A stretch of 64,000 nt of DNA, taken from Hirudinaria manillensis. Its lineage: Eukaryota > Annelida > Clitellata > Hirudinida > Hirudinidae. The notes beneath the pieces were generated by a model. It saw only the letters and a list, made by a program, of their open reading frames with translations. It was not told the DNA's origin and made no database searches. Numbering within the stretch: position 1 is the first letter of the stretch; each line of letters begins with the position of its first letter. The stretch spans positions 11,284,501 through 11,348,500 of the forward strand of contig CM067528.1 in NCBI GenBank assembly GCA_034509925.1, in the 5' to 3' direction. A program made the position numbers and the translations under genes. This document shows positions 7,620 to 33,955 of the stretch, one piece after another.

Positions 7620-9617
7620 CTATTGCTTGTTGTTTGTAGCTTGGAGGAGTAAGACCAGCTGTTCAGGAAGCACGTTTATGCTTTGCACCGCTTCCGATCC
7701 TAAGTTCGGCAGAGCGCTCGGACCGATTACATTCTTGGAACAAATGTTTGGGAGCTGAACGGCAAACCTTAGGTTCAGAGGCCGATCGGTCGGTTGGGAA
7801 AACACGAGGGCGGGATGATCGGCAGAGGAAAGGGACGTTAGCGGTATCAAGGGGAGCTGGAAATTATTCTGCATCGGGCTGGGTGCCTGCATTCGGGTCA
7901 ACGCATTGAGGAAAGAGTTTGGCTGGGAAGGTGTGAGGATTGCTTGATGCAACTGTGAAAGAGAAAGTGTGTTCTGAGGAATGAGTGGTTGAATCGTTTG
8001 AAACCCTGAGGCAGGTAAGACTTCGGGGCTTGTTTTTGTTCTCTTTTCATGGGATGGCCGATCTTGGTCGGATAGGTTTTTAGAGATGATGTTTCTTGAA
8101 GATTTGCTGTTAGTAAGCTTGTTGGAGATGCCATTTTTCAAGCCACCCTTGCAAGAAGTGACAGTACTGGGCAGTTTCCTCTTTGAGGTCCCTAAAATGG
8201 CTTGTTCCTTTCCATTGAGAGCACTTGCAAATTTGTCAGTTGATGACTCGAGATCACACTTATTCTTATCATCAGGTTGATACATGCCCACTAAAACAGA
8301 AGGGAGAGTCTGCCTATCCTGTTGATGTTTTGTTTCTAGGTGGTTTTGAAAATCCTGAGCTGAATTTGTAGCATAGCTGCACATCTGACAGGGATATACA
8401 AATTTTCCTGCATGACGTCGCGTCTTGAGAATGTGTTTCCTCAGGTTCTCTTGAGTATTGCATGTGTATCTGCAGTAGAGGCACTTGTAAGGTTTCGAGC
8501 CCGTGTGAACTCTCTCGTGTCTTCTGAGATTTGCTGCCAGAGTTGTTTTATAGCTACAAGAGTTGCATTGATATCTTTTATCTCCTTCGTGAAGCCTCTG
8601 GTGGCGCTTCAACTGGTGTCTCGATTTGCCACTGTAACCGCATTCATCGCACAAAAACCGTCGTTCCGTGGAATGAGTTTGGAGGTGCACCGCCAGTTCG
8701 GATTTGTACCGGAAGAGGCCGGTACAACCGGGATAGGGGCACTTGAGTTTCTTGTCGTGCAGTTTCATGTGGGCCGTCAGCTGGCTCAGCTGCATAAACT
8801 GTCTTCCGCACTGACAGCACTGATGACTAGGAGGGAGAACCCCATGTTTTTCGACTTCGCTAGCTCCGTGTTCCCTCAGGGCATGTGCCTGCATGGTCGA
8901 CTTCCTACCGAATTGTTTTTCACAGACGGGGCACCTGATAAATAGAAAATGCTGCCGACACTTCAAAGAAATAATGCCGTTCCGTCGAGAAGATTATCCA
9001 AACGACAAGCAACATACTTGTAGTACATGATGCCAAGGTGGACTTTCAGGTGCCTTCTCATCACGGCTACGTCCGCAAACTGCTTTGTGCAGAAAGTGCA
9101 TTTGAAAGGAAGGCTTCCTGTGTGTTGCCTCAAGTGACTCAGTATCCCAGCTCTGGACATTTTCTTTCCACACTCTGGACAAGCTATTTTTTCATGACTC
9201 CCTCCGTTCTCTGAAATCAGCTGCTGGTATAAAGCCGTGCACTTGGAATCGGCAAAATCTACGTCCTGCTTGTCGACCTCGAATCCGTTTCTTTTTTTGA
9301 AGCCGGGCTGCCTGGAGTCGGCCAGCACGTGGTTCAGTTCGTGAAAGTGAAGCGCGTTCAAGGCGTAGAAGAGCCTTCCGCACCTCTGGCACCTGTAATT
9401 CTTACCGTCACCGGATTTCATTTCCTCTACTTTCCTCAGGTGCGTCCGGGCCAAATTGTGGGTCTTCAGTCTCTCTTGAGACAGGAGTCCGATGCCACAT
9501 ATTTTGCACCAGAACTTTACTTCTTGTTTCTCTACATTAACTGACTAAAATAAATTCAAGTGACTTGTTAATTCATCAAGGTTATATATATATATATAAT
9601 TTTGATGTTAATTTTGA

Positions 9618-12693: not shown

Positions 12694-13373
12694 GGCTAAG
12701 ACAATTTAGAGTTGTTAAATCATATGATAAAAATTCTATTACGCCTGAGACCAGCTGGCCGACCAAGCCTACAAAACAAAATTCGGAAGCAATTATGATC
12801 AAAACAATAACATTTGAATGATTTGCAGGATCTTTCCTTCCGATCTTCATTCTTATATTATTTCATTCACCAGGCTCCTCCGACTGATAATCAAATACCA
12901 ATACAATTACAATTAGTGAAAAATATTGACCTTTCTATATAAGGCTTAATATTCGAATAAACGCTTGTTTGCACAAGATTTATTGCAATTAATTCAATTC
13001 TTAGGGAAATCGGATCTCCGAATTCTCATCCGCATCATGATTGCATTGTCATTAGTGGTTCCAAGCAGTTATAACCGGCCCTAGAGGGTACATGAATTTA
13101 ATTCGGAAGAATATTAGGTATGGGTCGAATCTGGATGGCTATGCTCCCTATGGATTCAAAAAGAACCAAATAGGCGAATGGGGGAAGGCAGATCCAACCT
13201 ATACATTGAACATTTTCATACAATTTGCTCGGTCCTAGCCCCTCTCATTGATAAATTTTTATCCCTCCTCCAAATTTTGATTCCCCTCCAAAATGTTCTA
13301 TACTGGCAACTCTTCATAAAAATATATTTACAAGTACCTTCAAGGTCTGAGACCCAGAGAAAGTAATGCTTAG
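12694..13373. promoter_or_regulatory. Upstream region of the zinc-finger gene
   Basis: Holds the presumed promoter and 5' UTR of the minus-strand zinc-finger gene. No clear core element could be assigned; a TATATAA-like string at about 12937 is on the wrong strand to be decisive. No coding exon was recognised. Confidence 0.25.
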
Positions 13374-13568
13374 GTTAACGACCTTGATGATGGAATATCA
13401 TATAAATTGTCTAAATTCGCAGGTGACACAAAAATCAGCAAAGAAAGGGATAGGGATGAATTCAAGTTGAACTTGGGAAATTATGTTGTGGTCTCAGATT
13501 TAATAGACGCAAATTCAATAATGCATGTGAGAAGCAGAAATAGGATGACAAAATATGAATTTAAGTGA
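13374..13568 (+). pseudogene. Decayed non-LTR reverse-transcriptase fragment
   Basis: Bases 13374-13568 form an open frame of 64 codons that reads like the RT active-site region of CR1/jockey-type LINEs: VNDLDDGISYKLSKFAGDT, where families have a FADDTK core, then MHVRSRNRM, where families have KCKVMHVGSRN. The usual second catalytic Asp is replaced (FAGDT), part of the middle is shortened, and stops follow at once, so this is a relic. It is a different lineage from the intact LINE at 20.5-24.5 kb, whose equivalent reads FADDAKIY. Confidence 0.6.
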
Positions 13569-13984
13569 AAGGTCTTAACTAAGTCCAAGGAGTAATTATG
13601 CACGGGAGTGGAAACTATCATCGCAGTGTAGGAAAGCTAATAATAAAGTGTGATAAAGACAATGTTAAGCAAAGATAAAATTTGAGGTTATAAGATACGG
13701 GTGGGCAACGTACGGCTTTCGTGGCGATGCACTTTTTTTTGCCAATCTCCATCTTCTGCCTTATAAAATGACGTCCTTGATTCTTTTTCACGAATGAAGA
13801 CACAAATTACAAAAAAAAAAATTCACAAATTAATATTTGAAATAACATATACAGTTTTTTATTCCTACGCCTTGCCCTCATAATTCACTACTGAATTAAT
13901 ATGTTTTTAAAACGCGTTTATTTAACGTCATAGTTTCTCTAATTCGATCCGTTGGTTATAAGTACCGAGCTTTTACAGAACATA

Positions 13985-14212
13985 ATGAACAATAGAACTT
14001 TTTCTGATCGAATTTCAAGAAGTACTGTTAGTGTCAGCGAAGATGATGAAATAAAACGAGATCCAACTCCTACAACGGAGGGCAAACATGTTGTGGTGAT
14101 CGATTTTATGATTAAGAACAAGGAACCAGAAAGAGAAGCCGAAAGTTCGTTTCTTAGTGGAATATTCATTGCATTACTAGCAATTGCAATAAAATTCAGT
14201 TCAATTTTATAG
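13985..14212 (+). CDS. Small ORF with C-terminal hydrophobic segment (doubtful)
   Basis: A 75-codon ATG-initiated ORF. It has a Ser/acidic N-terminal half (SVSEDDEIKRDPTP), a short VVVIDFMIK stretch and a hydrophobic C-terminus (GIFIALLAIAIKF) that could act as a tail anchor. An AATAAA lies about 110 bases downstream (about 14319). I do not recognise the sequence. It could be a terminal exon of an unrecognised gene or a chance ORF. Confidence 0.25.
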   Translation: MNNRTFSDRISRSTVSVSEDDEIKRDPTPTTEGKHVVVIDFMIKNKEPEREAESSFLSGIFIALLAIAIKFSSIL

Positions 14213-14319
14213 CAATCTACATGGTAGCAACGGGGGCAATACTTCTCATACTGGCGTTCGTAAATGAGCTGAAATACAGATTTATTTATCACATATAAAT
14301 AAATTATAAAAATTATCAA

Positions 14320-16284
14320 TAAAACATAAACAAATTTTTAGGGTTTCGATATTACTGTTATGTTTCGGGATTCCGTTAACAAAACGCAAGTTAAAGAAAG
14401 GTCGAACTCTCAAGCCAAGTATGATCATTTTGCTTCCAACTTTTTAATCGCAAACTCCACTCATTTTTATAAGTTATCTTGCTCTCACCCTCAATCAATC
14501 TTCTTAATGGTTTTTAATATTTAAAAACTGTGGCGATTCGAGTTCGAATCATTTGGTGTTAGAGGGAAATGGGATTGAATGGCAGGGAGGACAATTAAGA
14601 CAAAATGGTCTACTCCGAATAGTTCCATTCTAGATATCAAGTACATAATTTGTCGAAATGTTGTGCTTTCTAATAAGAATTTGATCATGTCACTGACACA
14701 TGTAACCGGATCCCTGAAAAACTGATGGTCTACTTGCAATGGGGACATACCACAGGATAAGGTGGATAGCACGTCTCTTGGCCACATCCCTTTTTTACAT
14801 TTAAAATTCGAGTAGAGATCATTGTAATTTCCGTACTATAATACGAAGAAGCCAGAGAGGCCTCAATTTTGTAAATGACTCAGGCCATTCATCGGGATCT
14901 TCAAATGACTTTGTAGTTATGGAAACTGACAGTTTAGTTCATCGGAAGTGACAGTCCATCACGTAGTATTTTCGCTTTCAAAAACTATTTGAAGATGGTT
15001 GGACAGGTCTCAGCGCTTAAAGATAGATTTGCCGGAGAATTGGTGATGAGATTAGAACTTATTTTTGGCAGGGTAGTGAGGATGTGATAAAAAAAAATCT
15101 CGATGTGCAGTGTAAAAATAGTCTTCAGAAAGTTTGACTTCAGATTCGAGGGTCCTGATTAGGGTCTGGTGTGGTGGATAATGTGGTGTGATGAGACTAA
15201 TGGCAACGGTTTCATGGATTTTTTAAAGATGAAATTGAGTTTTTATAGATCTTGGAGATAAAAATCAGTTGATTCAAGTGAGGCATTAATCTTATGTATA
15301 GTAGAGAGTTGGCTTACTGTGAAGGAGAGAATGCTCTTCGTAGCAGCGATTTGAATACCAGTTGGGTTCGTCGTGTTAACCCATTTGCATTCTTAACGCA
15401 AATAACGTTAATAATTCCGGATGTTGTGAAATTTCTCAGAATCCTTGTTTTCATTCGATTAGCAAATAGGTTTATCAATTATTAATTAACAGTGAATTAA
15501 TTTAAATTCCAGGCATAGGGGGTCTGCCGCTCATTGAACCTGATTCAGAAGCCTCTCTGCCAATGTTTTTCAAATAAAGCTTAAAACAAATTACATTAAC
15601 TTATTTTATTTTCTGTCATTGGATCGTGTCGTTGAGTGAGTACATTTTAAATTTGAATTGCATTTATAAGTGTTGTTTAATCTACGTGTCTTCATATTCA
15701 GGGGTGTGGATTGCTCATTGTGATGATTATTAATAAATATGTTTCATAAACCAAATGTTTTGACTTGTCAGTCCACCGCCTTTAGGGATTACAATTAAGG
15801 TTAAGGTTTAGGGTAGGGATGACACCTCAGGAAGTCATTTAAACTTTTTGCATGAGGTTGACAAACCAATACCTATTTAACGTTATTTGAAATCTATTTA
15901 ATTCAGTGAATTCCCGCAATTAAAGAAATAATTCTTTAAGTAGATGTAAGGGTACCATCTTTAGAAAGGCTTGAGCCTAAAAACATTATTAAATCTAGTT
16001 GCTTAATTAACACACGGGCATAACACCCATAAAAGTACGCGACAGCACAAAATAAATTGCTCTATTAAATTTATTCGCTGGTAGCATTTAAATCATTATC
16101 AACTGAGTAAAATGTTTGGACCATTATTTAAAACTTAATATTTTCGAATCAATGCAATCCTTTTCACTTTTATCTCTTGGAAGGCAAAGTGGAGAACCAG
16201 CGGCTTAGTTCTCATTTTCGGAGCTTCTGGAGTTCCGCGCGAAATTTGTTGTCGTTTTGGAGAATGGACTAATATTTTTCCAAA
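14320..16284. other. Gene-free stretch upstream of the ADAM gene
   Basis: Nothing that supports a gene was seen. The last few hundred bases should include the ADAM promoter and 5' UTR. Minus-strand ORFs here (for example 14521-14787) show no family resemblance. Confidence 0.4.
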
Positions 16285-19200
16285 ATGTTGATTTACTTTT
16301 ATTCACTAACGTTTTTTAAGGTGCTATTGTTTTATGTTGAAGCTTCAGAAAGAGTTTCAGGTTAGACCCTTTTAATAGCGGCAAATTTCTTATTTTTGTC
16401 CAATGAACTCAGTTATCACATCATCGTCGTGCTTATTAATTGACTGTTTGATTCGATCATTTTTGTTCCAGACTCAGTTAATAAAGCTCAAACTGGATTT
16501 GCGAGTGGTACTGCTAATTTGAACAATGGTACTCGATTATTTTCTTATCTTTTGAAATCTTTATAAATCGTAGAGATTATTGATTTGCTATTATTAAGCT
16601 TTCTTGGTTATTTGTTTTTATGAATGCCTATACTGGTTCTGAAAGCAGTACCAATGTTATAGTTTTGACTTGAATATAATTTTTTTTTCAATATATGGCC
16701 ATGCATTCAGAGATTTTTAAACTTGATTTCACTTTCTAATTGTCAGAACTAAAAATTTTCCTTCTACTAATTATTTTAACATTATATGGCTCTTTGGTTG
16801 AAAATGAATGTATTTATTATACATTTGCTAATCCTAAGTTAATTAACATACCTGCATAGATTAATTTTTAGCAATTTAGATTATAGCGATTTTAATTATA
16901 GAATTATGTTTGTATTTAGATACACGAGCAGTTCAAAAGAAATGCAATAGGGTTGAAGATGTCAAATTAACTCTTCAAGAATGGAGTGAAATCATTCTAG
17001 TTTCTTTCAAGCACTTTCCATCAGCATCATCGTCGTCGTCGTCATCATCATCATCATCATCGTCAACATCATCTCAAGCCTTTAACATAACCAGTTCAGA
17101 GGTAATTGATTATGAGGTGTTGTAACAAGTTTTGATCATGATTTACCTTTTTCCTCTCACAAGTTATTTTCTGGAGCAGATTAAAATTTTCACGTGCCTT
17201 TTTGGAGATGACCTTAATTTTCAGATCAAACTATTTGCTCCTCTGCTTATAATATTTGAATTTTTTATCATTTTTATCTTTTCATTAATTAATTGTTTAT
17301 TGATATTAAATTTAAATTATGTTTTTTAAATGATGTTCATAATCAGAGTCACCAGCATCAGCAGCATAAGCATCAGACGTTCTTGAGATTCACTGTAAAC
17401 AAAACCAACTATGACTTACCTCTACGATTATACAGGTGAATGATTGTACCAGATTGCATTTTAATTTATGCAAATTTGATGTTAATTAATGTTAATTTGA
17501 TGTTGCCAAACAAACATTATTGGATGTTGTCCCAGGTTGTTGTTATTGGTGTTGTCAGGAGATTTTAGATGGACACAACAAGTTTTTTTTTAATTTTTGA
17601 GCATACCTTGATTTTCATAATGCTCTTATTAATGTTGATTTGAATATTTGGACATGAGTGATTGTAATGTGTTTTAAACATTATAATGTAAACAATTATT
17701 GAAGTTGTGTTGTTGGTACGTTGGTAAGATGTTAATTAAGATCTACAATTGATAGAAGTTTATTCTAATTTCTTAGGGATGCGTACAGAGAAACATTGAA
17801 AATCACCTTACATGCCAATAAGACCTTTTCAAGAGTTTGTGTTTCACATGTGGTTCTTTTTTCCATCGATTCACAAATCAATTTGAATCTAATCCATGTA
17901 TACTCTTAAGGAAGCCTAGTTTATTACTGACTCTGAATAAACATTATCTGCTTATTTTAGCAAATCAATGATATTTAATCATTAATTATTTTTTTTAATG
18001 GAAAAAGAAACTAGAATAGATGATCATTCTGATGTGCTTCTTCAGAAGTTGTTGATATTATAATTATTGTTACCTTCCATTCTGTAATTTTTTTTCTCGA
18101 TTTAAGAGTTTATTCCTTCATTAACACAAAAAACTGAAAAGAGCAGCAAAAAAAAAATAAAACTCAAAGGGCCAGCCTTAAGGAAGCACATGCTTCCGCT
18201 AGTAGACTGACCCATGAAACACAATAAGCAGAAAAATTAACACAAAAAATTAGGAATGATGGTATATAATTAAATGGTTCCATTAATCAGAAGGTGCATG
18301 TTTTTAAACAATAAATATAGTACAATAACATGTAGTTAAATTAATCCGATAGAGTTAATAATAAAATGTTTTAATGCTTTCTTATAAGCATAAAGATTAG
18401 AAATGTTGGTAATATTAAGCGGAACAGTAGAGTAAATAATGCAACCTCGCAAATCATTTTATCATTAATATATCAAAATTAGTTATTTAATTAAATGAAT
18501 TAACATCCTCAGTCGATTCCCAAAAACTGCCACTACTTTGGAAATGCCTGGAAAAATAAACGAACCATTCCAGTTTCTGCATTCATCAACCTCTGCAGCA
18601 AAACGAGGCAAGAAGGTTTTTTTATTGATGATATTTGAGGATGCCTTGTCAATGATTGGTGGAGTTAAAATACACCTGGTACCTGAATTGGCATGGATAC
18701 ACATGATCTGTATAAAGTGGCTCAAAGAATACTTCAATTTCACAGATGATTGACTTTTTTAATCATATACTTCTTGTTTTCTTGCTTGGCAAGTTTCGCT
18801 GTCACGATTGATCGATGCGGTTGTTTAATCACATTGCATGATGATTGATAATGATTTATTGATAATTTCTTTTGCTTTTATTGACAAAATTAATATTAAT
18901 TATTCTTCTCTTTCAGTGGCTTGATTCTGATTGGTGGAGAGACATTCATCATCAAACCAGTGGAGTTTGAAATATGTGATCATCAGAATGAGGTTGGCTC
19001 TTCTGACATCATTTAATCATTTAATATAATATTTATTTAATTGGGGATTTTTTTAAAAATTTCATTTGCATTTATTCATTAATTTCATTCAATCCATCTG
19101 CCAACAAAGGCAGACCAATGATTCAGAGAGTCAGAGTCAGTGCCAATCTCAAATTTATAATTTGGTAACATGTTAGTGACGTTGAGATCAGAAATGTATT

Positions 19201-20471
19201 TAGAATTTATTGTTTATTATTATACATCAATTCTTGAATTATCAAAGTTTTATTCTAAGGACTCTGCTTATGCTTCACATGCAAATTAGTCTTCAATTTC
19301 TTGCTTCAATTTAATTCAATTTAAAAAAAAAATTAAAAAAAACATTCATAAAATTTATTAAAACAGGTGAAGAGCCTGCAAACAATAGGTTTTGTGAATT
19401 ATGAGTGACATTTGGATTCATTTAACTTTCAGTCGTCTCGGTCACACATGGCATTCAAGGTGCCAACGACGATGACGACGACGACGACGATGGAGGATGC
19501 AAAACCAACGGAAGACGAACCCATTTGTGGTTTGTTTTTGTTTTTGTTTCAACAATCATTGAACAATCGATTGCTTTTTTGTCTACTTCAGAAGCACTTG
19601 ATAAAATCTTTTCTCTAATTTATTCCTTAATTATCATTAAATTTAATTCCTCTTAATTTACATCTTCATCTTAAGAGATTCAAATGTTGGCCAAATATTT
19701 GCTTTGCTTGGGTAACTCAAATTGATTAGTCACTTTATAAGCTTGATTAGCATCTTTAATATTATTATAAAATATTATTATAAAGTTATTATTATAATAT
19801 TATGAATATTAAAATTAAAAGTAAACTTATGTAAATCAGTGAGAGTATTGTTAGTGCTTATCAGCAATTGAGAAGTGGCTTGAACAGCTTTATTATTATT
19901 ATTGTTATTATATGATTTTATTACTATTAAATATTATGTTAGTTGCATCTAATTATTTGAAATAATTAGGATTAAGAAATATTACTTGACTAGCAAACCT
20001 GTTGACCTTTATCAGGAAACAAGCTTTGGACCTGGAAAAGGTTCCAGAGTTCCGATCCGCACAGGGCAGAATACCTGAGGAACTTGAAGATCGGAAAGTC
20101 CAAAAGTGTTAGCACTTCAAATTATGCATTAATTAATTAATTAATTGATGTTAATCCTCAATTAATCAATTTTAATTCTTAATTAATTAATTTTAATTCT
20201 CAATTAATTAATTTTAATTCTCAGTTAATTACTTTTAGTTCTTAACTAATTAATTTTAATTCTCAATTAATTAATTTTAATTCTTGATTAATTTTAATTC
20301 TTGATTAATTAATTAATTTTTAATTGATTAATTAATTTTAATTATTTTCATTTCCATCCATTCTTTGTCCATTTATAAAAATGGCTTTGCACTCCTTTGC
20401 AACACTTATTTTTTCTTAAACTGCAACATCAAAGGAGGTGCTTATATTTTGAAAGCTTTGTTGTTGATTTG

Positions 20472-20519
<48 letters not shown>

Positions 20520-23500
20520 CACGGGCGAACCCCTCGCCTGAACAAAAACATAAAACTTTCAACAAAAACTAACAAATTATGTACATCGCTCTCTAACAAA
20601 TCAAATATTTACAATCTCCGAAGTGGTCGAAGCGAACCCCTCGCCTAACACAAATTACTTAAGTAAACAAAAAGCAAAACCCTCCACATATCAAACAAAC
20701 AATAAAACAACCAGTCACAACAAATATTTACAATCCCCAAAAAAATCATCCAATAACATTTTGAAGATGTCCAGGTTTGGAGCACCGACAACCGACCGAG
20801 GAAGATCATTCCACTCTTGGACAACTCTATTGCTGAAAAAAAAACTTCCTCAAATCCCTGTGAGCAATGTTTGTTGATAGTTTCCAATCATGGCCCCTCG
20901 TTCTCTCCTCTGGGCAAAACATAAGCCTAGGGCATAGGAATTCTGGAGCAGTTCCTCTGATGATATTGAACATCAATATCAAATCAGCCCTTTTTCGTCT
21001 ATACACCAGGGAGGGCAGTTTCAAAATTTTTAATCTATCAGTATATTCTAAGTCTTTGCATGAATTGCACATATGGGTGAATCTATGCTGCACACTTTCT
21101 AAAGTATCCACCAGGCCCTTTCTGTATGGATTCCATACCTGCACAGCATATTCCAGATGTGATCTCACTAGGGCCTTGTATACTGAAACCAAAGCATCTT
21201 CTGACAGATGCTTGAAGTTTCTATAAATGACTCCCAACATCTGGTTAGCCCTATTGACTCTCTGCAAGATATGCTCCTTAAATCCCAGTTTCGAGTCCAA
21301 GATGATTCCAAGATCTGATATTTTGTCTACCTTGGGTATCAAGTGAAGAGTTCCCTCTGTGTCTGTTACTGTGTACTCGTAATCTGCCTGGTGAGTTCCA
21401 AATTTCATACAGCAGCATTTATCCCAGTTGACTTTCATGCCCCACACATTATACCAATTGATGACCCTGCTTATATCATTTTGCAATAGATAACTGTCTC
21501 CTGGTCCCAGCATTTTATAAATTTTAGCATCGTCTGCAAACAAAAAGATGTTGCTACAGACATTGTATATGTCATTAATGTAAATGATAAAGAGAACTGG
21601 CCCCAGGACACTGCCCTGCGGCACACCACTGGTAACTGGGTATAATTCAGAGGAAGCTCCATTCACCACAACCCTAAATGATCTCTGTGTTAAATAATTT
21701 TTAATCCACTGAATCAAAGCCGGGTGAACTCCATATCTTTCCAATTTGAACAACAACTTGCAATGTGATATCTTGTCAAAGGCCTTCTCCAAATCAGTGT
21801 ACACTACATCTATTTCAGTGCCTTTATCAACAGCTTCAGTAACAACATCCAAAAATCTTAGTAACTGCAATGTAGTTGATCGGCCCGGAATGAAACCAAA
21901 CTGGCCCGGACAGAACAACCCATTACTCAGAAAGTAATCCATTAAGTGATCCTTGATGAGGGACTCTAGAATTTTACAACAAATTGAGGTCAAGGCGATT
22001 GGTCTGTAATTTCTTACATCATTTTTGTACCCCTTCTTGTGTAGGGGGACTATGTTACTGATCTTCCAGTCTTCAAAAACTGTGGCAGTATCCAGAGACC
22101 CCCCAAAGATTTTACACAAATATTCTGCAATCTCATATCTAGTTTCCCTCAAAATTCTGGTATGAACACCGTCAGGGCCTGCTGATTTGTATATGTTCAA
22201 TTGGCTTAACTTTTTTGCTACCATAAAAGTATCAACTTTAAGCTTGGCCATTCCCTCTGCTGGAACTTTTGGTTGGAAAACTTCATTTATTTGATGCCGT
22301 TCCTCAGACTCGTACACCGAAGAAAAAAACTTTGCAAATAAATCTGCTTTTTCCTTGTCTCCAGTGATCTCTCTACCATCTTCAACCAGAGTGGCAATTT
22401 TGCTTCTACTTGATGTTCTCTTATTAACATAACTCCAGAATAATTTGGGATTTTTTCTGCACTCCATTGCGATGCGATTCTGACTTTCAACAATCAAGTT
22501 CCTAGAGAGTACCCTCACCTTTTCTCTCACCTGGTTAAAATCAGTTTTAACATCTTCTCCATGTCTGTATAACTTTCTCCATAGCTGATGTTTCTTCTTG
22601 ATCAAGTTTTTCAGCTCCTCTGTCATTTTAAATCTGAACTTTTTTCTTTCTGTTTTCAAGGGCACATATTGCTGAGCTGACGACACCAATGAATCTCGAA
22701 AGAAACACCAATCTGTGACCAATGAATCCTCCGACGTCGGCAGCCTCTCGAAAATCTCCCTCAAAGATGATTTCATTTCTTCGTAATTGCCTAGTTCAAA
22801 ACAAAATTTTTTTCGGACATCTTCTGCGGTTGCATGCTTGATAAAAGTCCCGAATGTTATGACATCATGATCACTGTTTCCTAGGGGAGGTCTGTGTCTT
22901 ACGTCATATATCAGTTCTTTATCTGTTATAACTAAATCTAAGATATGAGGAGTCTCTTTTATTCTTCTTCTTGTAGGTTCAATCACGTGTTGTATCAAAT
23001 GTTTGTCCCTAATGAATTCCAAAAGTATGCTCTCGATGCTATCTTCACTCCCGGCACATGAGTAATTAATCCAGTTGATTTGTGGCAAATTGAAATCACC
23101 CATCAACAGATGATCTCCCTTTTGCAGAAAGAAATCCTTAATCAGCAAAATAAAATTGTCATTATTTTTCAATGCACAGTTGGGACTTCTGTACACAACC
23201 AGGATATTTACAATGGAACCGGAGATAAACAACTTCAAGCACAAAAATTCCTCAAATGCAGAGTCAAAACTAACTTCAGACATAGACAAACTTTCTTTAT
23301 AATAAAGCAGTATACCTCTTTTACCCTTTGTTGCAAAACCCGACGAAGCCATTTGATAACCCGTCAACTGGAACTCTGACAATTGACAAGAATACTTGAA
23401 ATTTTTCGGATTGATCTCGGTCAAGATTATCAATTCTGGAACCACTTCCAACGTATTTACATAAACCTTGAGTTCAGAAAATTTATTGGGCAGGGAGTCA

Positions 23501-26500
23501 ACATTGCTATAAAATACTGAAAGATTTTTGAGTGGTTTGGATGGTTTTGGATCCTTCATGATTATAAATTTTGTTTCTTGAATGCTGCTACATGAAAATC
23601 TCCAGGTGAGCCTTTAACCACAAATGTCCATTTAGACACATCATCCTTTGCTGCAATCAGTTTCTTCTTTTCATCCAACAATCTGTTTCTTTCGTCTCTG
23701 TCCTCTTTAGATAAATCGTGAGAGATTATAACCTGCTTGAATGATTCACTTTTGCGAAGTTTGAATGCAGATTCCAGAATCAAATTTTTGTTGCTCAAAT
23801 TTCCAAGTTTTATCAGCAATGGCCTGGGTTTGTCACCTTCTCCTCTCCTGCCCAATCTGAAATATTCACTGATATCCATTGTTATGCCAGTGATATCTTT
23901 GATCATTTTTACCACTTCTTCTTTATCTTTAGTCTTTGAGTTGGCCTCGTTCTCCTTCATGTTGAACAGCACTAGGTTGTTTTTCCTCCTTTGCCTATCA
24001 TTGTTGACTTCAATTGAAGATTTGGCCTCCACCACCGACTTTTGCACCACACCCACAGTTTTTTGTACCACACCCACATTTGTCTCCAGTGACTCCACCT
24101 TGTTCTGGAAGAGGCTGGACCAAACCCTGCTAGCCTGGTGGCTTTCCTCGAGCTTTTGGGAAGCACTTGCTGAGATTTCCTCCATTCTTGATCGCAGCTG
24201 GTCTATCTGTTTATTTTGAGCCTCTATTGCTTCCATAATCACATCATTCTTGGTCACAGACTTTTTTATCTCTTCTACATCTTTATGTAAAGCCTCGAAA
24301 ACTTTTTCATGACTTTCCTTGCTAAACAGTTCTTCTAGTGATTTCAAAGCACAATCGTTGCATTCAATACAACTGTGACATAGTTTTAGCCCCAGCATCT
24401 CTGCTATCTCCGATGCACCACATTCGGGTGATTTTCGCCCCCTTGGTCTCGGCATGATCCGAACGAAACAACAACAAAAACTGACAGATTCTACTAATTA
24501 ATGTAATATTCTATTCTTATTACAATAATGCAATACGTTTATATCAAATTTTTGAGTTTTAAGCTGCAATCTGTTCGAAACTATCGGAGCAAAACAATTC
24601 GGCTGAGCGAAAATTCGTGTACGTCTTTATGACATTACCTTGTAGATTGTGAATCCAAACTGTTTTGTAGGTTGAGTCACTCGAGTGAATTATTTTACTA
24701 TTTTATTATTATATTTATTATTATTATTATTATTATTATATAACATATATTACTATTATTATCATATATTATTATTAATATTGTATTATTATTATTATTA
24801 TTAATATATATTACTATTATTATTATTATATATTATTATTAATATTGTTATTATTTTTTTTTTATTATATTAGCATCATCTTTAGAACCTTCAGGAAGGT
24901 TTGTGGTTATTATAATTGCTTATTAGAAATAATTGCTTATTATTACAAGCACCAATACAAGCAGACGACAAGTTGTTTGTTCGACAAGTTTTTTTTTTTC
25001 TTGCGATTTATTACGAACCATCGAGCAATCACGGCTTCACAAGGTTCTTTCAATTAGCGAAGGAAGGATGCATCGGGTTCTATTTTAAGAAGCCGGTGTT
25101 GATTTTACTCCTATTTTTTTTTATTTTCACAGCAGAACAACAACAACAACAACAACTACAACAAGTTTCCTCAATGCTTGGTAATCAGGATGGGTCTCGT
25201 GGTCGATCACAGTTTGGTCAGCAAACGTTGATTTGATTAATTTATTAATTTATTTGCTTGATTTGATTAATTTATTAATTTATTTGCTCGATTTGATTAA
25301 TTTATTCACTTCTCAAGTTTCACTGATGAGATTTTGCTCTAATCAATGTTTTTGTCTTGCTAACCCTCTTTAAAAAATCCATAGAATATTATGGAAACTT
25401 TTATTATAGGATAAATGAAATTTATAAATATAATAAATAATAATAATAATAATGATATATGTAATAAATAAATAATAATAATAACAACGATATATGTAAT
25501 AAATAAATAATAATAATAACAACGATATATGTAATAAATAAATAATAATAATAACAACGATATATGTAATAAATAAATAAATAATAATATATGGAATAAA
25601 TTGAATGAGTTTCATTGCCTGAACAGATGAGCACGATGTTGAATGCTTCTGTTGAAGATGTGAAACAACAGATGTTACTTCTCTCCAACGTTCTTAATCA
25701 GGTTTGGACGAGCAGTTGTTACGAATTTTATAGTTTCTTTCTTTTCAAGAAAAGTAATAATATAAAATAATATAAATAGTGAAATAAAAGTAAATATTAA
25801 TATAATAATATAAATAATAATATATAAATATTGTAATGAACTTTAATGAGTACTATAATTTATATACTGTAATGTGCGTTGGCAGTGCCTTGACATCCTA
25901 GCACTTGGATTAAAAAGGCACTTAAAATATTTGCAGAATTGAATTGAATTAAGATACAAAAATTGTTTATACCCCTTGGCACTGCCTAAATGGCATAACA
26001 ATTAAGAAGTGCCTTTACATCTCGGTTGTGTCTGACGATGAGCCCAATAAACGCTTGAAATTAATTGTTTACTTGATAATCAATTATTAACGACGTAGTG
26101 GTTTGCTTTTAAGCTTTTAAGAGAACTCCACAAAAACATCCAAGTCGAGCTGGTTCGCCTCGACCTTTGGACGGACGGAGATCTTTTCCCGACCTCTTCG
26201 GGGGTTCGTTGGACTTTGTCGAACCTCGTCCGGAACGTCGGATTGTTTTCCGAAGCGGATGGACCCCCGTTCCACTACCTCCATCTGCTCAGGTGGCCAT
26301 CATTGTTGTTGTGAAGTTAAAGATTTATTTATTAAATGTATTTATTTATAAATTAACGATTTCGATTCTAACGGCCCCGTGGCGCTTTCCCCAAGACCTT
26401 GCATCTCGAGTTGTCCCATCACGATTGGTTGAAACCAACAAACCAAACGATTTTGATGATGATCTGTTATTTTGTACTCTTCAAATGAAATTCTTTAAAT

Positions 26501-29500
26501 CTCCATGGAATCCTCATCATCACGAATGTTATGCAAACTCCGCCTTCCTTGCAGTGGCCAATCTGATGGCAGTCACTACGGAGCATCAATACCCGATTCC
26601 ATTTGCACGGAGAGAGCAGTTGGATTCTCCTACGTAAGTGTTTCGAGATTTTTGTAAGCAAAAACCACTTTGATTGATCAACCAATCAATCAGCCAGCAT
26701 GTCATTATCCATAAGCTTATCACCTCAGCTATCACTGGGGTGGTTATGATAGTGATCACCAGTTGACATCGACTGAATTTACAACTGAATGCTTCCAGGT
26801 TGAAAATCCGGACGACATTGTTTCCATGGCAACTGGAATTGCACATTTGCTTGGCCACGTCCTGGGACTGGAACACGACGGATCGGATGGGGGATCTAAC
26901 AGAAGTAGGAATTAACGAATTATCTACTTAATTAGTTAACTATTTAACTAATTGTTTATTAATTAATTTATTTATGTAATGTGTATTTATTAATGTGTCT
27001 GACAGTTCATTGTGTTTGGTTTCTAAGTGAACAGTCAATTTTGATGTTTTAAGGTGTAAATTTAAAGTTGTTATTTCACCAATTGCTGCATTAATCGAAT
27101 TATTAAAAATGACTTGTTTCTTATTTCCTAAGACAAGAAGTGTCCAGACAACAGAGGCTTTGCAATGTGAGTTCATCATCTTTCAGAAGTTCTGAAATAC
27201 TGTTTAAAAATTCTCTCTATAACTAATTGATCATCCGTAAATGGAATCAGAAAACAGAAATGTCATTAAGTGCAACCTTTGTTTTTAACATTTGGGGGTT
27301 ATTTCATCTTTAGGAGTCCAAAGAGATTGCACATCTTTCCAAACATGCGAGCATCGTTTCCAACATCATCATCACCACCACCAACAAACAAAAGTAGCGA
27401 CAGGATCAACAAGAACAAAAGAAACAACAACAACAACTCCAGCCATTCCCATGACGACCACCACCATAGACATCGTTATCATCATCACTTCCACTTGGGG
27501 TGGTCTGCTTGCAGTCAGCAGGACTTTGGTCTTAACCTCAAGTCGAGATTTCTGGATTGTCTTAAGGGTTCCTGCACTCATCAGCATCATCATCACCACC
27601 ATCAACAGCAGCAACAGCCAGAAGAGTCTGTCGACGCTCCTTCAAAGGGAAGCAACGGATCTGCCGACAGGAAAGACGGAGATGACGGATCTGTCGTTCC
27701 TGAAGACGGAGAGGGCGCCAGTCTCGATGAAGACGACGACGACGACGATGCTTCTCTTCCCGGCAGAGAAAATCCCGGATTTAAAAAGGTTCTCGACTTG
27801 TAGCTTTTGATTCGTAAATATGGCAGCAGATTAATTATCGGATTAATTAATCTCAAAATAAAAAACGAATCTCTGTCGACGGAAGGTTTTTAGAATGCAT
27901 TTGATTCTTGCAACTGACTGATTGATTCTCCCAGACGAGGAGTGTTTTATCCATTTTTTGTCATTTTTTTTATATTCTTTTTTGGGAATTTTTCAACAAT
28001 TCCTATGAATCACCAGTTTTTTATTGTGAGGCAGTAACTCTGCAGGAAATCTTTTTTACAGGCATCATTATCATCATCATCTTTTGTTTTTTTTTTTTGA
28101 GTCTTGCCAACAGTCTCTCATACATTTGTAATTTTTTTTTACATCACAGTCTGATTCAATTCCTCCAATATTTTAAGTGCCTTTTTTATCCAGTCCTAGG
28201 ATGTCGAGGCACTGCCGACGTACATTAGCATAGACACGAGCACAACATAATGAAATAAAGAGAACTAAAGACAATTAAAAAAAAAATTGCAAACTAAAAT
28301 ATTTAAGAATAACATTGAATAAACAAATGAGTCTTTAGTCTGATGGCTTTTATGATTTTTTTTTCCAAATTATTTTCCAGAGCTTCTCGTCGGAGTGCGG
28401 AAACGGCATCCTGGAACGAGGAGAGGAGTGCGACTGCGGCAGTTTCGAGGTGAGCGACGAAGTCGTTCGAGTCGTCGGGAGACCGTGCAAACGGTTGCTG
28501 TTGTTGTTGTTGCTTGGACTGCAATTAGAATTTTCAACAGTTCGATCTTTAATGATGATGATGATGATTCATCCATTCCATTCAATCATTCAGCTCTGTT
28601 TGCAGATTGACTGTCAAATTCATCATTAATCTCTTTAATAAACTTGGCATCGTTTGTGTTCAAGTGCTTAAGTGGTTAGGATCAAGTAATAAGGCCTTAA
28701 TGATAATAAGGCGATGATGATGGTAATGGATAATATCAACAAGATGATGATGATAGTGACAGTGATAGTTAGTACAAGAGTCGTGATATTTCTTTCCTAA
28801 GGCATCTGCAATCACTTATCACACGGAGGTAAATGTTCTTCAATTCTTGTGCCTGGATCTTGGACGGCATGTGTTGTTTATTCTTTGCTTTTTAAGTTCT
28901 GGTGGATTCTTTTATCATTTCCTCTTCTCTTTTTTCAAGAGGAATCAGAGGAGTTTTTCTTACCTCAGTCAATTTTCAAGATTCATTTCTTTACTTTCGT
29001 ATCTCGTTCACGTTTTCCGTCTGCTTTCTGTTTTGCTTTTAATGTTATGCTTTGTTTATTTGTATGGTGGTACTTGGTATTTTTGGTATATATACGATTA
29101 TATTTATTAAATATAATAATGAAATATTTCATGGTTTATGTACAAAATATAATTTAATAACTCAAAATTCTTGAGGTACTCAACTTTTAATTAATTTTTA
29201 AACAGAATTTTAGTTTTTTTTTAAGTATACAAACTTTACGTTGTCATCTCAATGCTTTGTATCTGAGTTTGTTGTTCTGTTTGCATTTGCTTTTGATGCC
29301 AGAAGCATTTTCTTTTTTTTGCACCCCACCGTAATCCAGGGTTCCTTCTGTTTTATGGTTAATGGTTTTGAATTTGACTTGAAATAATTTGATTTAATAA
29401 CAAATTTTATTAATTTAAAAAAATTGTTTTGTTGAATTTGAAGGACTGCAGAGCATCTGATCCATGCTGCAATCGCATGACTTGCCTCCTTGAGCCGTGG

Positions 29501-32500
29501 GCGACCTGCAGAAAGGGTGGATGCTGCACCAATTGCACTGTAATGGGTTTTATAAATTAAGCTATAAATCGTTAATTATTAATTTGGTTATGAATACTTA
29601 ATTACTAATTAGGTTATAAATAATTAATTATGCTGATCTCGAAAACAATGGCACTGGTTGGAAATATTTTGCTCTGCTTTTTGAAGAAAAATTGCAATCA
29701 AAGCTAAAAATTTGTTCCTGATGTCTTTTTCGTTTATCATTTCTTCCAGCTATCGCCGAGCAATCACGTGTGCAGGGAAATGAAGAATACTTGCGACGTT
29801 CCAGAATTTTGCTCGGGAAGTTCTGAAGAGGTGTTTATGGATTGAAGTGTATTGTTGATGGTTTTAATAATTAACTGTTCTAACTGATTTTGTAATTGAA
29901 TATTAATTAGGTAAACATTAATTAATTGGATGTATATAATGTATGGATATACAGACAATGGAGGATTGACATTATTTCAAGTCCAATTAACATTTTTCAC
30001 GATAAACAATTTATTTATTCATTATTCATTAAATTTAATAATAAATCATAAGTCTCAACGTTAACCCATGCTAACTACTTTCCATTCTAAAGTGTCCTGA
30101 AGACTCTCAGGTCTTGAATGGACAGCCGTGTCTGGAGTCGGACGTTGAAGAAGGACGCGAAGTCGCCAACGAAACCAACGAAGCGAAAGACTCTTCGGGT
30201 CTCTGCTACGACGGGAAGTGTCGTTCATACGACGGGCAGTGCGTGGCAACGTGGGGGAGCGGTTGGTAGACCCTTGGTCTCCCGGGCAACGCCGTTACCG
30301 TGACGATGATCGATCTCGCTCAAATTTCTTCAGGTTCGTCTAAGGCTTCAGACGGATGCTTCTCGACTTTCAACCGGATTGGAGCCATGAGCGGTCATTG
30401 TGGATCGTCGCCGACGTCATTGTCTTCGTCGTCATCATCGTCGTTGTCGTCATCACAGTCGACTTTGCTGTCTTCGTTGACAGAAGAGTCGTCGTCGTCA
30501 GGACCGACTTTGACCTCCTCGACTTCACCACCAACTTCATCATCGGAGTTCATCAAATGCTCTCAGAGGTTGCTGCTGGAAATCGTGCTGAATAATTTTA
30601 ATTTTTAAAATGCTATTATTATAGAATAATACAATTATAATTTAAAAAAAAATTATCCGTCCTATTGCAACAAAGGAATGTCATGTGCGGACTCCTCCAT
30701 TGCAAAGGCGGACCTCAGAAACCTCTCGTTGAAGATGCCAACAGCATCCTCTTTGAAACCACGATCACATCCTTCGGAAAGTCCTACCAGTGCAGGTCGG
30801 TCACTCGATTGAATTCATTGGTTTTGATGTCAAAGACCTGGATTTGAATTCTATTAATTATTGAAACTTATTTCATGACTTAAAATAAATTTAGTTATCA
30901 GAATAGCAATTATCTTTCTCTGAGTTCCCAAGATTTTAATATAAAACAGAAACTTGAGATCTGAGTTATTAGAAAACCTTCAACAGTTTAAGCACTATGC
31001 TAATTATAATATCCTACTGTTGAATCATATTGTTGAATTATAATATTGCAAAGTAATATTCATTAAAAAATACATTCATTACGGGGAGTGCATGTTTACA
31101 TTCCCAGGGTACTTAGCAACCCCAATGAACCTTCGCAACACCTCGTGGAAGACGGCAGTCCCTGCTCTGCCGACTCCATTTGCATTTCAAACGAATGCAT
31201 TCCGACAGCAGAGGCAGTGGAGGAAAGCATCAGATGTCCTCGCGGCTTGAACAACGTGACCTGCTCTGGCAACGGAGTGAGTGAAAAAGTGGAACTCCAT
31301 TGTTTTTGTTGTTGCTTTAGTTCACATTTTAATTTGTTTTCTTTGATAATCAACATTATCCTGTTGTTGAAGCAGAATGTGTTGTTTAAAGTCTTTAGTA
31401 CCGTGAATAAAAATGCACGTTGGCCTAGTTAATAATACTTAACTTGATGCTTAGGTGTGCACGGACATGCTGGAATGTTTTTGCAGCCGTCACTTCTCTG
31501 GCCATGATTGCAGTTCACCTGTCAGCGAAACCAAAGTGCCTACGACTTCGGCTGATGAATCACCTGAACTTTCCAGCAACGAGATGGATTATCAGCAGTA
31601 TTACAACAACAACAATAGTGTCCAATTCAATAAGACTAGCGGAGGTTAAAAACTACTGTTGTTCCGTGACTGCTGACGATTTTTTTAAATATACTCGTTT
31701 GAAGTAATGGATTTGAAGCAGGTGTTCCTAATGGGAAATGCAGTCATTGATTTTTCAGTTTTTATTTATTTTATTTTTTTGTTTTTGTGATATTGTCGTG
31801 AAATTGATTATCTTTATGATAACGTGATTGCATCCATTTCAGTGGCAAAAGTTGCTCTCGAAAACATCAGAAACTCGGCCAATGCTCTTTGGCTCCTCGG
31901 TGCCATGAGTTGCGTCATCGTCGGTGCTTCTGCGATTCTCATTCTTTGCCTTGTTTGTTACAAGTGAGTATCAGCTTTTTAAACTAAGCCTAGTAACATC
32001 ATAATCCACTCCACTATCAAATGCAAGGGGTGTCTGGATAAGTGACAGGTAAAAGACAATCTGCAGGCACAAGTTTTATTGCTTTGTTGTGGATTTCCAG
32101 ACTCAGGAAGTAGGGTTGGGGTGGCCAATTGGACTAAGGTTAAGTTAGGGCGTGATTAGGTTTGGATTTAAAGATCCCTGCCTGTTAAAAAGTCTTTTGC
32201 TTATCACTTATCCAGCAATCATGTAAAATGACTACCAATAATGTGCCGATTGGTGGCACCGATTCTTTTTAAGTTGAAAATGTATCTTATCGCTTCCTAG
32301 GAGGAAGACGCCAAAGCTGACAAAGAAACAACAAATATGTCAACTGAGGAACCAATCGTTGATGTGCAAATCGGATTACGAGTCAAGTTCAAGGGTCAAC
32401 AGAATAATTTCGTTTGGAAGTTTGCCATCTTATAGGTAATAAGCCGTTAGCTTTTACACAACAAAGAATATCGCATCTATGTTATTAATTTTTAATTTAT

Positions 32501-33955
32501 CACTTCACTAATACATTTTAATAACTTTCTTGGACTATTGCATTACATGAGAGCCAACAGCCAAGCATAAATTGACATCAAATTAAAAATGTCCATTAAC
32601 AAAATTAACATTTATTCCAAAGAGCCGACAAATTAAGAAAAGCCATGAAAGGATCGAATCATAGCGAAACGGAGAGCGAGAAAAGCAGTAAAAGAAACAG
32701 CGGCGAAGTGAGCATCAAAGTTGGCAAAGAGGTGAAGGCCACCTATTTGCCGCTCCCCGACCCTCCGGACAAGGGCATACTCAAAAGGCCGGAGAGAAAA
32801 GGTCAGAGACGAGGCAGAGCAGCAGCTCGCGAGGAGTCTGCCCTCAACACGGGAAGCGACGCGAGTAGCATTCCGGGCGATTTGGTAGCTTGCAGCAGCG
32901 GCACGCCGAACGGGGGGAGGGCGGATGCTGCCGAGAAGTCGAAGAATGAATTGGATGGGCGCCCTGAGAATTCGGTAGCCAAACAAAACGCAAACTGTTC
33001 AAGAGATTCGAAAAAATCTTACAGGAATTCATTGGTGACTATGCCAGATATCCTCCCAAAGGTAGCTGAGCACAATAAATCTTATGAGATGGAAGGTGCT
33101 TTATCTGAAACCAGTAAAAGAGACAATTCAAATGTTTTAAATCAAAACATGTCGACAATGGAAACTGACTCAAAAGGTGAAATCAAGAGCATGGCTCGAG
33201 AAAAGTTCACCAAAAGGTCAAAGGCGCGGAGAAGCGCGACCGAGGAAAGTTCTTTCGTCGACGGAACGGGAACCATGTCCTCGTTCCTGTCTGCGAGTGA
33301 CCTCGAAGCTTCTCCTCGTCCGACTGCTCCTGCGCCGTCGCTGTGTTCCGATTATTCGCCACAATCCTTGGCGACTTCTAAGGTCGCTCCTCTGTCGTCT
33401 GGCTCCCGGCCTGTCGACGCTCTCAGACCCGAATGCCAAAACGTTTCTAATGCTTTTGAGGACGAAACGCCATCATCATCGTCACCGATTTCCTCCTGTT
33501 CCACCTTCACGTCGTCTCTCTCGGAGGCCTTAGTTCACGATCCTTCTCAATTGTCTGAGATTAACAAGAAACGAGAAGCCTCCTCCGTGCCTTTGAGAAG
33601 ATCTGTCGATCGAACTGCAATGAAACAAATGAACCCAACGAACCCAGTTGGAATCTCTGCCTACCATCTCGGAGAATCGTTCCCGACCTCCGGAGGCCCT
33701 CGGAGTTGCTCCCGTCGCCTGAGAGACGAGGTGCCAACTTCACTCGAACCAACCCCGAGAAGCCGGGATTTACGGGAGCACTCGTTCGACAAGTCGATCG
33801 ATCTTTCTTTGCCTCGGCATACGGAGGCACCGGCCGAGGTATTTAAGCCGGACCCCAGGGGGGCCTACACCAAAGCCCCAGGTTCACCAGGTGTACCTGA
33901 CGATGATGATGATGATTTTGGGGAAAGGAAATTCTCAGGAACGACGGTCGGATGA
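16285..33955 (+). CDS. ADAM-family membrane protein, predicted catalytically inactive
   Basis: Exons: 16285-16360, 16472-16528, 16920-17101, 17347-17435, 17777-17834, 18513-18607, 18917-18992, 19433-19529, 20016-20107, 25133-25180, 25627-25701, 26099-26292, 26555-26633, 26799-26904, 27133-27166, 27314-27788, 28381-28449, 29444-29539, 29750-29830, 30093-30261, 30334-30568, 30676-30795, 31108-31276, 31455-31644, 31843-31963, 32301-32435, 32623-33955. The frame closes to about 1516 aa. Order: signal peptide (1-20), prodomain (CHYFGNAWKN...) ending in a Cys-switch-like PICG (about 243), and metalloprotease (ELHKNIQVELVRLDLWTDGD). Its zinc site reads HLLGHVLGLEHD (about 422-433) instead of HExxHxxGxxHD. 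Then disintegrin (CGNGILERGEECDCG; CREMKNTCDVPEFC), Cys-rich (GLCYDGKCRSYDGQC), EGF, one TM helix (about 1002-1025) and a roughly 490-aa tail. Loss of the catalytic Glu suggests adhesion or receptor use, as in ADAM11/22/23 and Drosophila mind-meld; orthology is unproven. Weakest parts: exons 20016-20107 and 25133-25180, and the first protease strand. Confidence 0.88.
17024..17076 (+). repeat. In-frame (TCN)n repeat coding for polyserine in ADAM prodomain
   Basis: A mixed TCA/TCG trinucleotide run inside ADAM exon 3 encodes about 13 consecutive serines. It lies in the prodomain, where most ADAMs have no such insert. Confidence 0.85.
20123..20345. repeat. Tandem TTAATTAATTTTAATTCT-type repeat
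   Basis: Several degenerate copies of a roughly 20-base AT-rich unit (TTAATTAATTTTAATTCT and variants) lie in the ADAM intron, just left of the LINE insertion. Confidence 0.8.
20477..20516. repeat. (TA)n tract at the 3' end of the LINE
   Basis: A pure TA run that abuts the 3' end of the minus-strand LINE. Non-LTR elements of the CR1/L2 group commonly end in a simple repeat rather than poly(A), so this is probably the element's own tail. Confidence 0.75.
20827..23559 (-). CDS. LINE ORF2: endonuclease and reverse transcriptase
   Basis: An intact 910-aa ORF. The N-terminal part is an exonuclease-endonuclease-phosphatase-type endonuclease with GDFNLPQINW (about residue 151) and the C-terminal catalytic SDHD (about 226). 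The RT follows: KSAGPDGVHTRIL, NYRPIALTS, GFIPGRSTT, TDLEKAFDKISH (first catalytic Asp), SGVPQGSVLGPVLFIIYIND and the active-site box FADDAKIY (about 673). The thumb region ends in LSEDALVSVYKALVRSHLEYA. The protein would nick target DNA and copy its own RNA there (target-primed reverse transcription). There is no RNase H domain. The start ATG lies two bases after the ORF1 stop, consistent with reinitiation. Confidence 0.93.
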   Translation of the reverse strand: MKDPKPSKPLKNLSVFYSNVDSLPNKFSELKVYVNTLEVVPELIILTEINPKNFKYSCQLSEFQLTGYQMASSGFATKGKRGILLYYKESLSMSEVSFDSAFEEFLCLKLFISGSIVNILVVYRSPNCALKNNDNFILLIKDFFLQKGDHLLMGDFNLPQINWINYSCAGSEDSIESILLEFIRDKHLIQHVIEPTRRRIKETPHILDLVITDKELIYDVRHRPPLGNSDHDVITFGTFIKHATAEDVRKKFCFELGNYEEMKSSLREIFERLPTSEDSLVTDWCFFRDSLVSSAQQYVPLKTERKKFRFKMTEELKNLIKKKHQLWRKLYRHGEDVKTDFNQVREKVRVLSRNLIVESQNRIAMECRKNPKLFWSYVNKRTSSRSKIATLVEDGREITGDKEKADLFAKFFSSVYESEERHQINEVFQPKVPAEGMAKLKVDTFMVAKKLSQLNIYKSAGPDGVHTRILRETRYEIAEYLCKIFGGSLDTATVFEDWKISNIVPLHKKGYKNDVRNYRPIALTSICCKILESLIKDHLMDYFLSNGLFCPGQFGFIPGRSTTLQLLRFLDVVTEAVDKGTEIDVVYTDLEKAFDKISHCKLLFKLERYGVHPALIQWIKNYLTQRSFRVVVNGASSELYPVTSGVPQGSVLGPVLFIIYINDIYNVCSNIFLFADDAKIYKMLGPGDSYLLQNDISRVINWYNVWGMKVNWDKCCCMKFGTHQADYEYTVTDTEGTLHLIPKVDKISDLGIILDSKLGFKEHILQRVNRANQMLGVIYRNFKHLSEDALVSVYKALVRSHLEYAVQVWNPYRKGLVDTLESVQHRFTHMCNSCKDLEYTDRLKILKLPSLVYRRKRADLILMFNIIRGTAPEFLCPRLMFCPEERTRGHDWKLSTNIAHRDLRKFFFQQ
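23562..24455 (-). CDS. LINE ORF1: RNA-binding coiled-coil protein
   Basis: A 297-aa ORF. The N-terminus carries a tight cysteine cluster (CHSCIECNDC, about residues 26-35). A long coiled-coil-like stretch follows (about 45-170) that contains a small tandem duplication, VGVVQKTVGVVQKSV. Then comes an RRM-like and basic segment starting at RRKNNLVLFNMKE, with FRLGRRGEGDKPRPLLIKL as in ORF1 proteins of many invertebrate LINEs. Such proteins bind the element RNA in a ribonucleoprotein. The start ATG is the first in the open frame. Confidence 0.85.
   Translation of the reverse strand: MPRPRGRKSPECGASEIAEMLGLKLCHSCIECNDCALKSLEELFSKESHEKVFEALHKDVEEIKKSVTKNDVIMEAIEAQNKQIDQLRSRMEEISASASQKLEESHQASRVWSSLFQNKVESLETNVGVVQKTVGVVQKSVVEAKSSIEVNNDRQRRKNNLVLFNMKENEANSKTKDKEEVVKMIKDITGITMDISEYFRLGRRGEGDKPRPLLIKLGNLSNKNLILESAFKLRKSESFKQVIISHDLSKEDRDERNRLLDEKKKLIAAKDDVSKWTFVVKGSPGDFHVAAFKKQNL
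24700..24860. repeat. (TTA)n / (ATT)n microsatellite
   Basis: Degenerate trinucleotide ATT runs in the ADAM intron, just right of the LINE. Confidence 0.85.
25229..25310. repeat. Short tandem repeat, about 36-base unit
   Basis: Two full copies and part of a third of a GATTTGATTAATTTATT-type unit ending in TTTGCTYG, in the ADAM intron. Confidence 0.75.
25430..25590. repeat. Minisatellite, about 36-base unit with ATAACAACGATATATGTAAT
   Basis: About four copies of a roughly 36-base unit (AATAAATAAATAATAATAAT plus ACAACGATATATGT) in the ADAM intron, just left of the exon at 25627. Confidence 0.85.
25865..25930 (+). repeat. Dispersed repeat copy A
   Basis: This segment, containing GGCAGTGCCTTGACATCCTA and ending in AAAAAGGCACTTAAAAT, is repeated in inverted orientation at about 28170-28230 in another intron of the same gene. 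It is probably an uncharacterised short interspersed or foldback element. The nearby 25975-26020 region repeats pieces of it (GGCACTGCC, AGTGCCTT). Confidence 0.75.
28170..28230 (-). repeat. Dispersed repeat copy B (inverted relative to 25865-25930)
   Basis: Read on the minus strand, it matches copy A over about 58 bases with a handful of differences, including the GGCAGTGCCTCGACATCCTA core and the AAAAAAGGCACTTAAAAT end. Confidence 0.75.

Follow-up and report, generated by a model that had tools for sequence, protein, structure and literature searches.

Can an ADAM whose zinc-protease motif has lost its catalytic residue still be a working protein, and to which branch of the family would it belong? 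The question is raised by a gene on the forward strand of the window, by which we mean the whole 64,000-nucleotide stretch analysed here, which covers positions 11284501-11348500 of contig C3 of the searched genome (148.4 Mb, 23 contigs). In metzincins, the catalytic Glu is the general base, and its loss abolishes proteolysis. In an ADAM gene, the first-pass annotation had placed an HLLGH motif at 26844..26879 that keeps the three zinc-binding His and the Gly and has Leu for the Glu. The results showed HLLGHVLGLEHD exactly there, in a spliced, in-phase exon of a gene with ADAM Pfam domains, and the substitution was confirmed.

Reading of the window sequence placed the motif inside a 106-base exon at 26799-26904 (exon M4, translated as VENPDDIVSMATGIAHLLGHVLGLEHDGSDGGSNR). 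The exon begins behind an AG acceptor (ttccag/GTTG), ends at a GT donor (AGAA/gtaggaa) and is in phase with the adjoining exons. From HExxHxxGxxHD, HLLGHVLGLEHD keeps the three His, the Gly and also the Asp; the Met of the Met-turn is kept too, and the catalytic Glu is Leu. The active-protease signature with its Glu is absent from the window ADAM gene, which has HLLGHVLGLEHD instead. The Leu codon is TTG, two bases away from GAG and three from GAA, so a one-base error is ruled out as the source of the Leu.

The gene model consists of 17 exons at 25627-33955, all on the forward strand and all with GT-AG borders. The exons were joined by reading frame and splice borders, from sequence alone, and form a single open frame of 1221 codons with no internal stop. 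The other two frames of the joined coding sequence contain 32 and 56 stops, and 200 base shuffles of it gave a mean of 56 stops and a lowest count of 38, compared with 0 inside the actual frame. The G+C content is 39 to 61% in the exons and 31% in the intervening introns. Repeats in the gene region are AT-rich microsatellites in introns, none of which bears on the motif.

The first recognised exon, M1 (25627..25701), was placed by splice sites and frame and lies within the metalloprotease domain. M2 (26114..26292) and M3 (26555..26633, with GASIPDSICTERAVGFSY) belong to the same domain by the splice and frame model and Pfam. M4, with the broken motif, was assigned from the sequence and the model, and M5 (27133..27166), with the Met-turn loop, from the model and the comparison with paralogs. 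M6 (27314..27788; model) holds the end of the metalloprotease domain (WSACSQQDF...LDCLK) and two long low-complexity inserts. The donor of M6, AAAG/gttctc, is weak and its 3' end is less sure; part of its low-complexity sequence may be spliced out. The disintegrin domain is encoded by D1 (28381..28449), D2 (29444..29539) and D3 (29750..29830, with the CREMKNTCDVPEFC loop), each based on the model, Pfam and alignment with ADAM22. The Cys-rich exons C1 (30093..30261), C2 (30334..30568, with a Ser-rich insert) and C3 (30676..30795) are based on the model, a solved-structure match and ADAM22 alignment, with Pfam in addition for C1. The late Cys-rich exon C4 (31108..31276) contains VEDGSPC and the start of the EGF-like module, and the EGF-like exon (31455..31644) contains VCTDMLECFCSRHFSGHDC and the stem and is nearest to ADAM22; both were assigned by the model and ADAM22 comparisons. 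The exon at 31843..31963 carries the transmembrane-like stretch WLLGAMSCVIVGASAILILCLVCY. It is followed by the cytoplasmic tail exons T1 (32301..32435) and T2 (32623..33955, with the tail end TTVG and the stop codon), and these last three exons come from the splice and frame model.

Other features were observed in the window. On the reverse strand, 20827-24497 holds a non-LTR-type retrotransposon that encodes its reverse transcriptase and endonuclease domains in a single frame, with a second ORF adjoining; it lies about 1.1 kb upstream of exon M1. Also on the reverse strand, 7623-8993 and neighbouring ORFs up to 12705 encode a C2H2 zinc-finger protein, as indicated by a domain scan of 7623-8993. 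On the forward strand, 45182-47683 is an 833-codon open frame that may start with the last part of a dual-specificity phosphatase domain, scoring below the family cut-off.

Pfam matched the joined protein with Reprolysin (59.8 bits), Disintegrin (72.6 bits) and ADAM_CR (54.3 bits), all above the curated cut-off and in ADAM order. Because three ADAM domains exceed the cut-off, a chance ORF is ruled out. The Reprolysin match starts at protein residue 4, which corresponds to profile position 16. ADAM_CR is followed by an EGF-like module, recognised by ADAM22 alignment, a single hydrophobic stretch and a tail of 489 residues. The disintegrin, Cys-rich, EGF, transmembrane and long tail regions that the first-pass annotation had described are therefore present in the 17-exon model, with WLLGAMSCVIVGASAILILCLVCY judged by eye to be TM-like and taken as a putative transmembrane helix. 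The comparison with ADAM22 showed that all 34 cysteines of its disintegrin-to-EGF region pair with 34 cysteines of the window gene (34/34; 36% identity over 261 columns).

The metalloprotease domain has changed beyond the lost Glu. In the Met-turn loop KKCPDNRGFAM, the Met is kept and two of the usual three Cys are replaced; the Met-turn loops of the paralogs compared start with CxC (HDDDSCFC, HDTETCGC, HDPEFCNC). Long inserts (Asn/His-rich, acidic and Ser-rich) follow the Met-turn, precede the disintegrin domain and interrupt the Cys-rich domain. These inserts, the two lost loop cysteines and a second dead ADAM in the genome go beyond what the first-pass annotation had noticed. The data suggest that a remodelled dead protease domain would sit on adhesive modules that appear to be constrained.

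ADAM loci in the genome were counted from matches to the Cys-rich, disintegrin and Reprolysin profiles, and all counts are lower bounds. At least 24 loci were found, including the window gene. Of these, 23 have a Cys-rich match, and C1:3668k was counted by a disintegrin match of low significance (E 0.2) close to an HEIGH motif. HExxH is kept in 21 of the 24 and is lacking in two, the window gene and C5:10231k; in the remaining one, C5:8288k, the motif was not located in the stretches examined. Exon M4 was not among the matches of the genome search with Reprolysin (E <= 0.001), and we regard this as a sign of its divergence. Clusters of adjacent HExxH-keeping ADAMs were observed at C5 8261k-8352k (where C5:8288k is the locus with the motif not located), C5 10069k-10080k, C9 6518k-6548k and C13 3721k-3790k. 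Around the motif, the ADAM stretches C13:3723365 and C13:3763929, which are separated by about 40 kb, have identical translations; in a disintegrin exon, one copy has Tyr and the other Cys. The pair arose either by recent duplication or in the assembly. In the same assembly, a COX1 stretch at C9:3026446-3027786, in a contig of nuclear size, equals C23:31-1371, in a 15.6 kb contig that looks mitochondrial, in score and stop count. Either the C9 stretch was copied to the nucleus very recently or it results from an assembly join. The COX1 protein appears leech-like.

The second dead ADAM, C5:10231k, has FLLGRLLGLRKE in place of HExxHxxGxxHD, as predicted from unspliced sequence, and reads LFLLGRLLGLRKE followed by the loop CNCPAKYCVM. 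It lies in a stretch at about 10229500-10239400 of C5, with the motif near 3032-3136 of that stretch, and disintegrin and Cys-rich exons are present. Leu at the Glu position is common to this locus and the window gene, and the disintegrin pieces of the two show no special closeness. As a speculative and rather improbable idea, the two motifs (HLLGH...HD and FLLGR...KE) could be steps of one decay, in which the Glu was lost first with the zinc site kept and the His later. In that case, a protostome receptor line of ADAM11/22/23 type would descend from a zinc-loaded non-protease.

The kinship of the window gene was examined by several comparisons. The search against solved structures gave 45 distinct sequences at E <= 0.001, with ADAM22 on top at 119.5 bits; the disintegrin and Cys-rich/EGF stretches account for this match. 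For the metalloprotease piece, ADAM22 scored 4.3 bits versus 37.2 bits for the ADAM33 protease domain. The late Cys-rich and EGF piece of ADAM22 ranked the window gene first in a local search of 55 loci plus the window, in which EGF exons were missing for some paralogs. The EGF 18-mer core scored 64 with ADAM22, and the next among the paralog EGFs scored 48 (8 of the 23 paralogs compared). Over late Cys-rich plus EGF, ADAM22 and the window gene were mutual best by score (196) among four sequences. Without the EGF, the best partner of the window gene was still ADAM22 (98 versus 73 and 65). Seen from ADAM22, the scores over the same part were 98 for the window gene and, for two paralogs, 95 and 105; since a paralog reaches 105 against 98 here, the EGF carries most of the ADAM22 signal. 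In identity over late Cys-rich plus EGF, the C13_3762k pieces were nearer to the window gene (37/94) than ADAM22 was (40/121), with C13_3762k lower in score and its row incomplete.

The disintegrin and early Cys-rich region gave a different result. By pairwise score, the window gene was nearest to C13_3762k and C13_5130k, both of which keep HExxH. ADAM22 was eleventh of 16, and 10 of 15 paralogs outscored it against the window gene. The first-pass annotation had proposed a phylogeny of the disintegrin plus Cys-rich region, and a tree of disintegrin plus early Cys-rich was built from ADAM22, the window gene and 15 of the 23 paralogs, the other 8 being left out as near-duplicates or incomplete. 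With 17 rows and 111 columns, the tree has long branches, 10 of its 14 inner branches are open, and no claim was based on it; the pairwise scores favour the active paralogs. The link to ADAM11/22/23 that had been suggested at the outset is thus supported by the EGF module and the late Cys-rich part, and the disintegrin and early Cys-rich scores, which are highest with HExxH-keeping paralogs, speak against it. Because these two sets of data conflict, we filed the gene as a dead ADAM whose link to ADAM11/22/23 is probable but unproven. On the evidence of its EGF module and late Cys-rich part, we lean towards regarding it as a putative protostome relative of that group.

There is some room for another origin. 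The window gene may be an ADAM of an active lineage that lost its Glu in this species, that is, a recent loss-of-function or neofunctionalised duplicate outside ADAM11/22/23. This reading overlaps with the preferred one on the dead protein and differs on kinship; we consider it unlikely, yet worth real weight. It fits the disintegrin and early Cys-rich pieces, which are nearest to C13_3762k and C13_5130k, and the retention of all three His, unlike ADAM22 (PMC11266112). It also fits the 12-residue motif, which is nearest to that of C13_5130k: C13_5130k (HELGHILGLKHD) and one C9 gene (HEIGHNLGLEHD), both active paralogs, are identical to the window motif at 9/12 positions. By contrast, the EGF and late Cys-rich region is nearest to ADAM22 by score, the Met-turn loop lacks two of its Cys, and the Leu codon is at least two bases from a Glu codon. 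Since two loop Cys have also been lost and at least two base changes are needed, the loss of the Glu is not very fresh.

Taken together, we believe that the window gene is quite likely a dead ADAM functioning as an adhesion or receptor protein. The gene would encode a type I transmembrane ADAM with a pseudoprotease metalloprotease domain. With Leu in place of the Glu, the general base, no peptide cleavage would be expected, and the metalloprotease-like domain could act as a folded platform that still contains zinc. Surface contacts through the metalloprotease-like, disintegrin and Cys-rich domains could then support an adhesion or receptor function, and the long tail may connect to intracellular partners. 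The ADAM11/22/23 group has likewise lost catalysis. By analogy with the dead ADAMs described in a review (PMC11266112), an adhesion or receptor role is probably the one to expect here.

The kept zinc site allows a further reading, in which the protein is a zinc-binding substrate trap that sequesters the substrates or inhibitors of the genome's active ADAMs without cutting them. Like ADAM7 and ADAM29 (PMC11266112), the window gene retains the three His, the Gly and the Asp, and 21 HExxH paralogs exist in the genome. The two lost Met-turn-loop Cys and the long Asn/His-rich insert after the Met-turn suggest a remodelled cleft, which argues against a trap, and we consider this reading doubtful.

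The gene could also be a decaying pseudogene. A genome profile search for the prodomain (PF01562, E <= 1) gave 3 weak matches, none of them on C3. Forward-strand open frames were read by eye for a signal peptide, the prodomain and the start of the metalloprotease domain (at least 32 codons in 12800-20826, dropped if one residue exceeded 28%; at least 28 codons from 24500 on), and no clear candidate was seen. Because upstream exons were not found, the gene model begins inside the metalloprotease domain. The missing start and the retrotransposon with reverse transcriptase just upstream on the opposite strand would suit a pseudogene. On the other hand, 1221 stop-free codons, 17 GT-AG exons and the cysteine match at 36% identity would be unexpected without selection; the match of 34/34 cysteines argues against a relic gene, and decay is very unlikely. 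Least likely of all is that HExxH is in fact present, supplied by an alternative transcript or hidden by a sequence error: the splicing was modelled from the DNA letters only, yet a six-frame scan of the window found no other ADAM-like HExxH exon (the context of its nine HExxH peptides was judged by eye), tblastn found no second copy of exon M4 in the window, and a single base error cannot yield Glu.

Loss of catalysis in ADAMs is itself a well-known basic phenomenon. According to the review, the Met-turn is typically retained in dead ADAMs, and ADAM7 and ADAM29 have lost the Glu alone; its motif table gives HQLGHNLGMQHD for ADAM7, HHLGHNLGMNHD for ADAM29 and QSIGHLLGLEHD for UNC-71 (PMC11266112). 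Human ADAM7 and ADAM29, described there as mammalian proteins of epididymis and testis, have Gln or His in place of the Glu and keep the three His as in the window gene; each is identical to the window motif at 8/12 positions, which is likeness in the motif only. Caenorhabditis elegans UNC-71/ADM-1 has lost the Glu as in the window gene, with 8/12 identity in the 12-mer, the only part compared. UNC-71 has also lost the first His, which the window gene keeps. Since two active paralogs match better (9/12 versus 8/12), the 12-mer alone is uninformative on kinship with UNC-71. In Drosophila, mind-meld (mmd) is named as the ortholog of ADAM11/22/23, and its predicted metalloendopeptidase activity, compared by description only, is unlike the window gene (PMC7503973). 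Fly Neu3 and mmd, with two Ciona genes, form the basal part of the ADAM B sub-group in PMC1867822.

For the ADAM11/22/23 group, the sequence compared was ADAM22. The tail end TTVG of the window gene differs from the C-terminal PDZ-binding motif reported for ADAM22, and this motif is not known to define the whole group; by the PDZ consensus, TTVG is of non-PDZ type. The known ligands of ADAM22 are LGI proteins, whose genes are reported to have arisen in chordates (PMC3691968), so LGI is an unlikely ligand of the window ADAM. A search of the genome for the EPTP repeat of LGI gave no match, and its positive control was silent too, so this result was not counted as absence. An apparent protostome ADAM without catalysis and with adhesive modules kept would help to ask what role these receptors had before LGI (as dated in PMC3691968). 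Common to the window gene and the ADAM11/22/23 group are the lost catalytic Glu and the domain order. ADAM22 in particular has in common with it the 34 cysteines from disintegrin to EGF, the EGF core C....L.C.C.RH..G.DC and the late Cys-rich VEDG.PC; the window gene differs from ADAM22 in its long low-complexity inserts and in its tail end. In the motif table of the review, ADAM22 reads QSLAHNIGIISD, ADAM11 QTLGQNLGMMWN and ADAM23 QSLAQNLGIQWE (PMC11266112); ADAM22 is identical to the window motif at 4/12 positions, and the window gene keeps the three zinc ligands, unlike ADAM11, ADAM22 and ADAM23.
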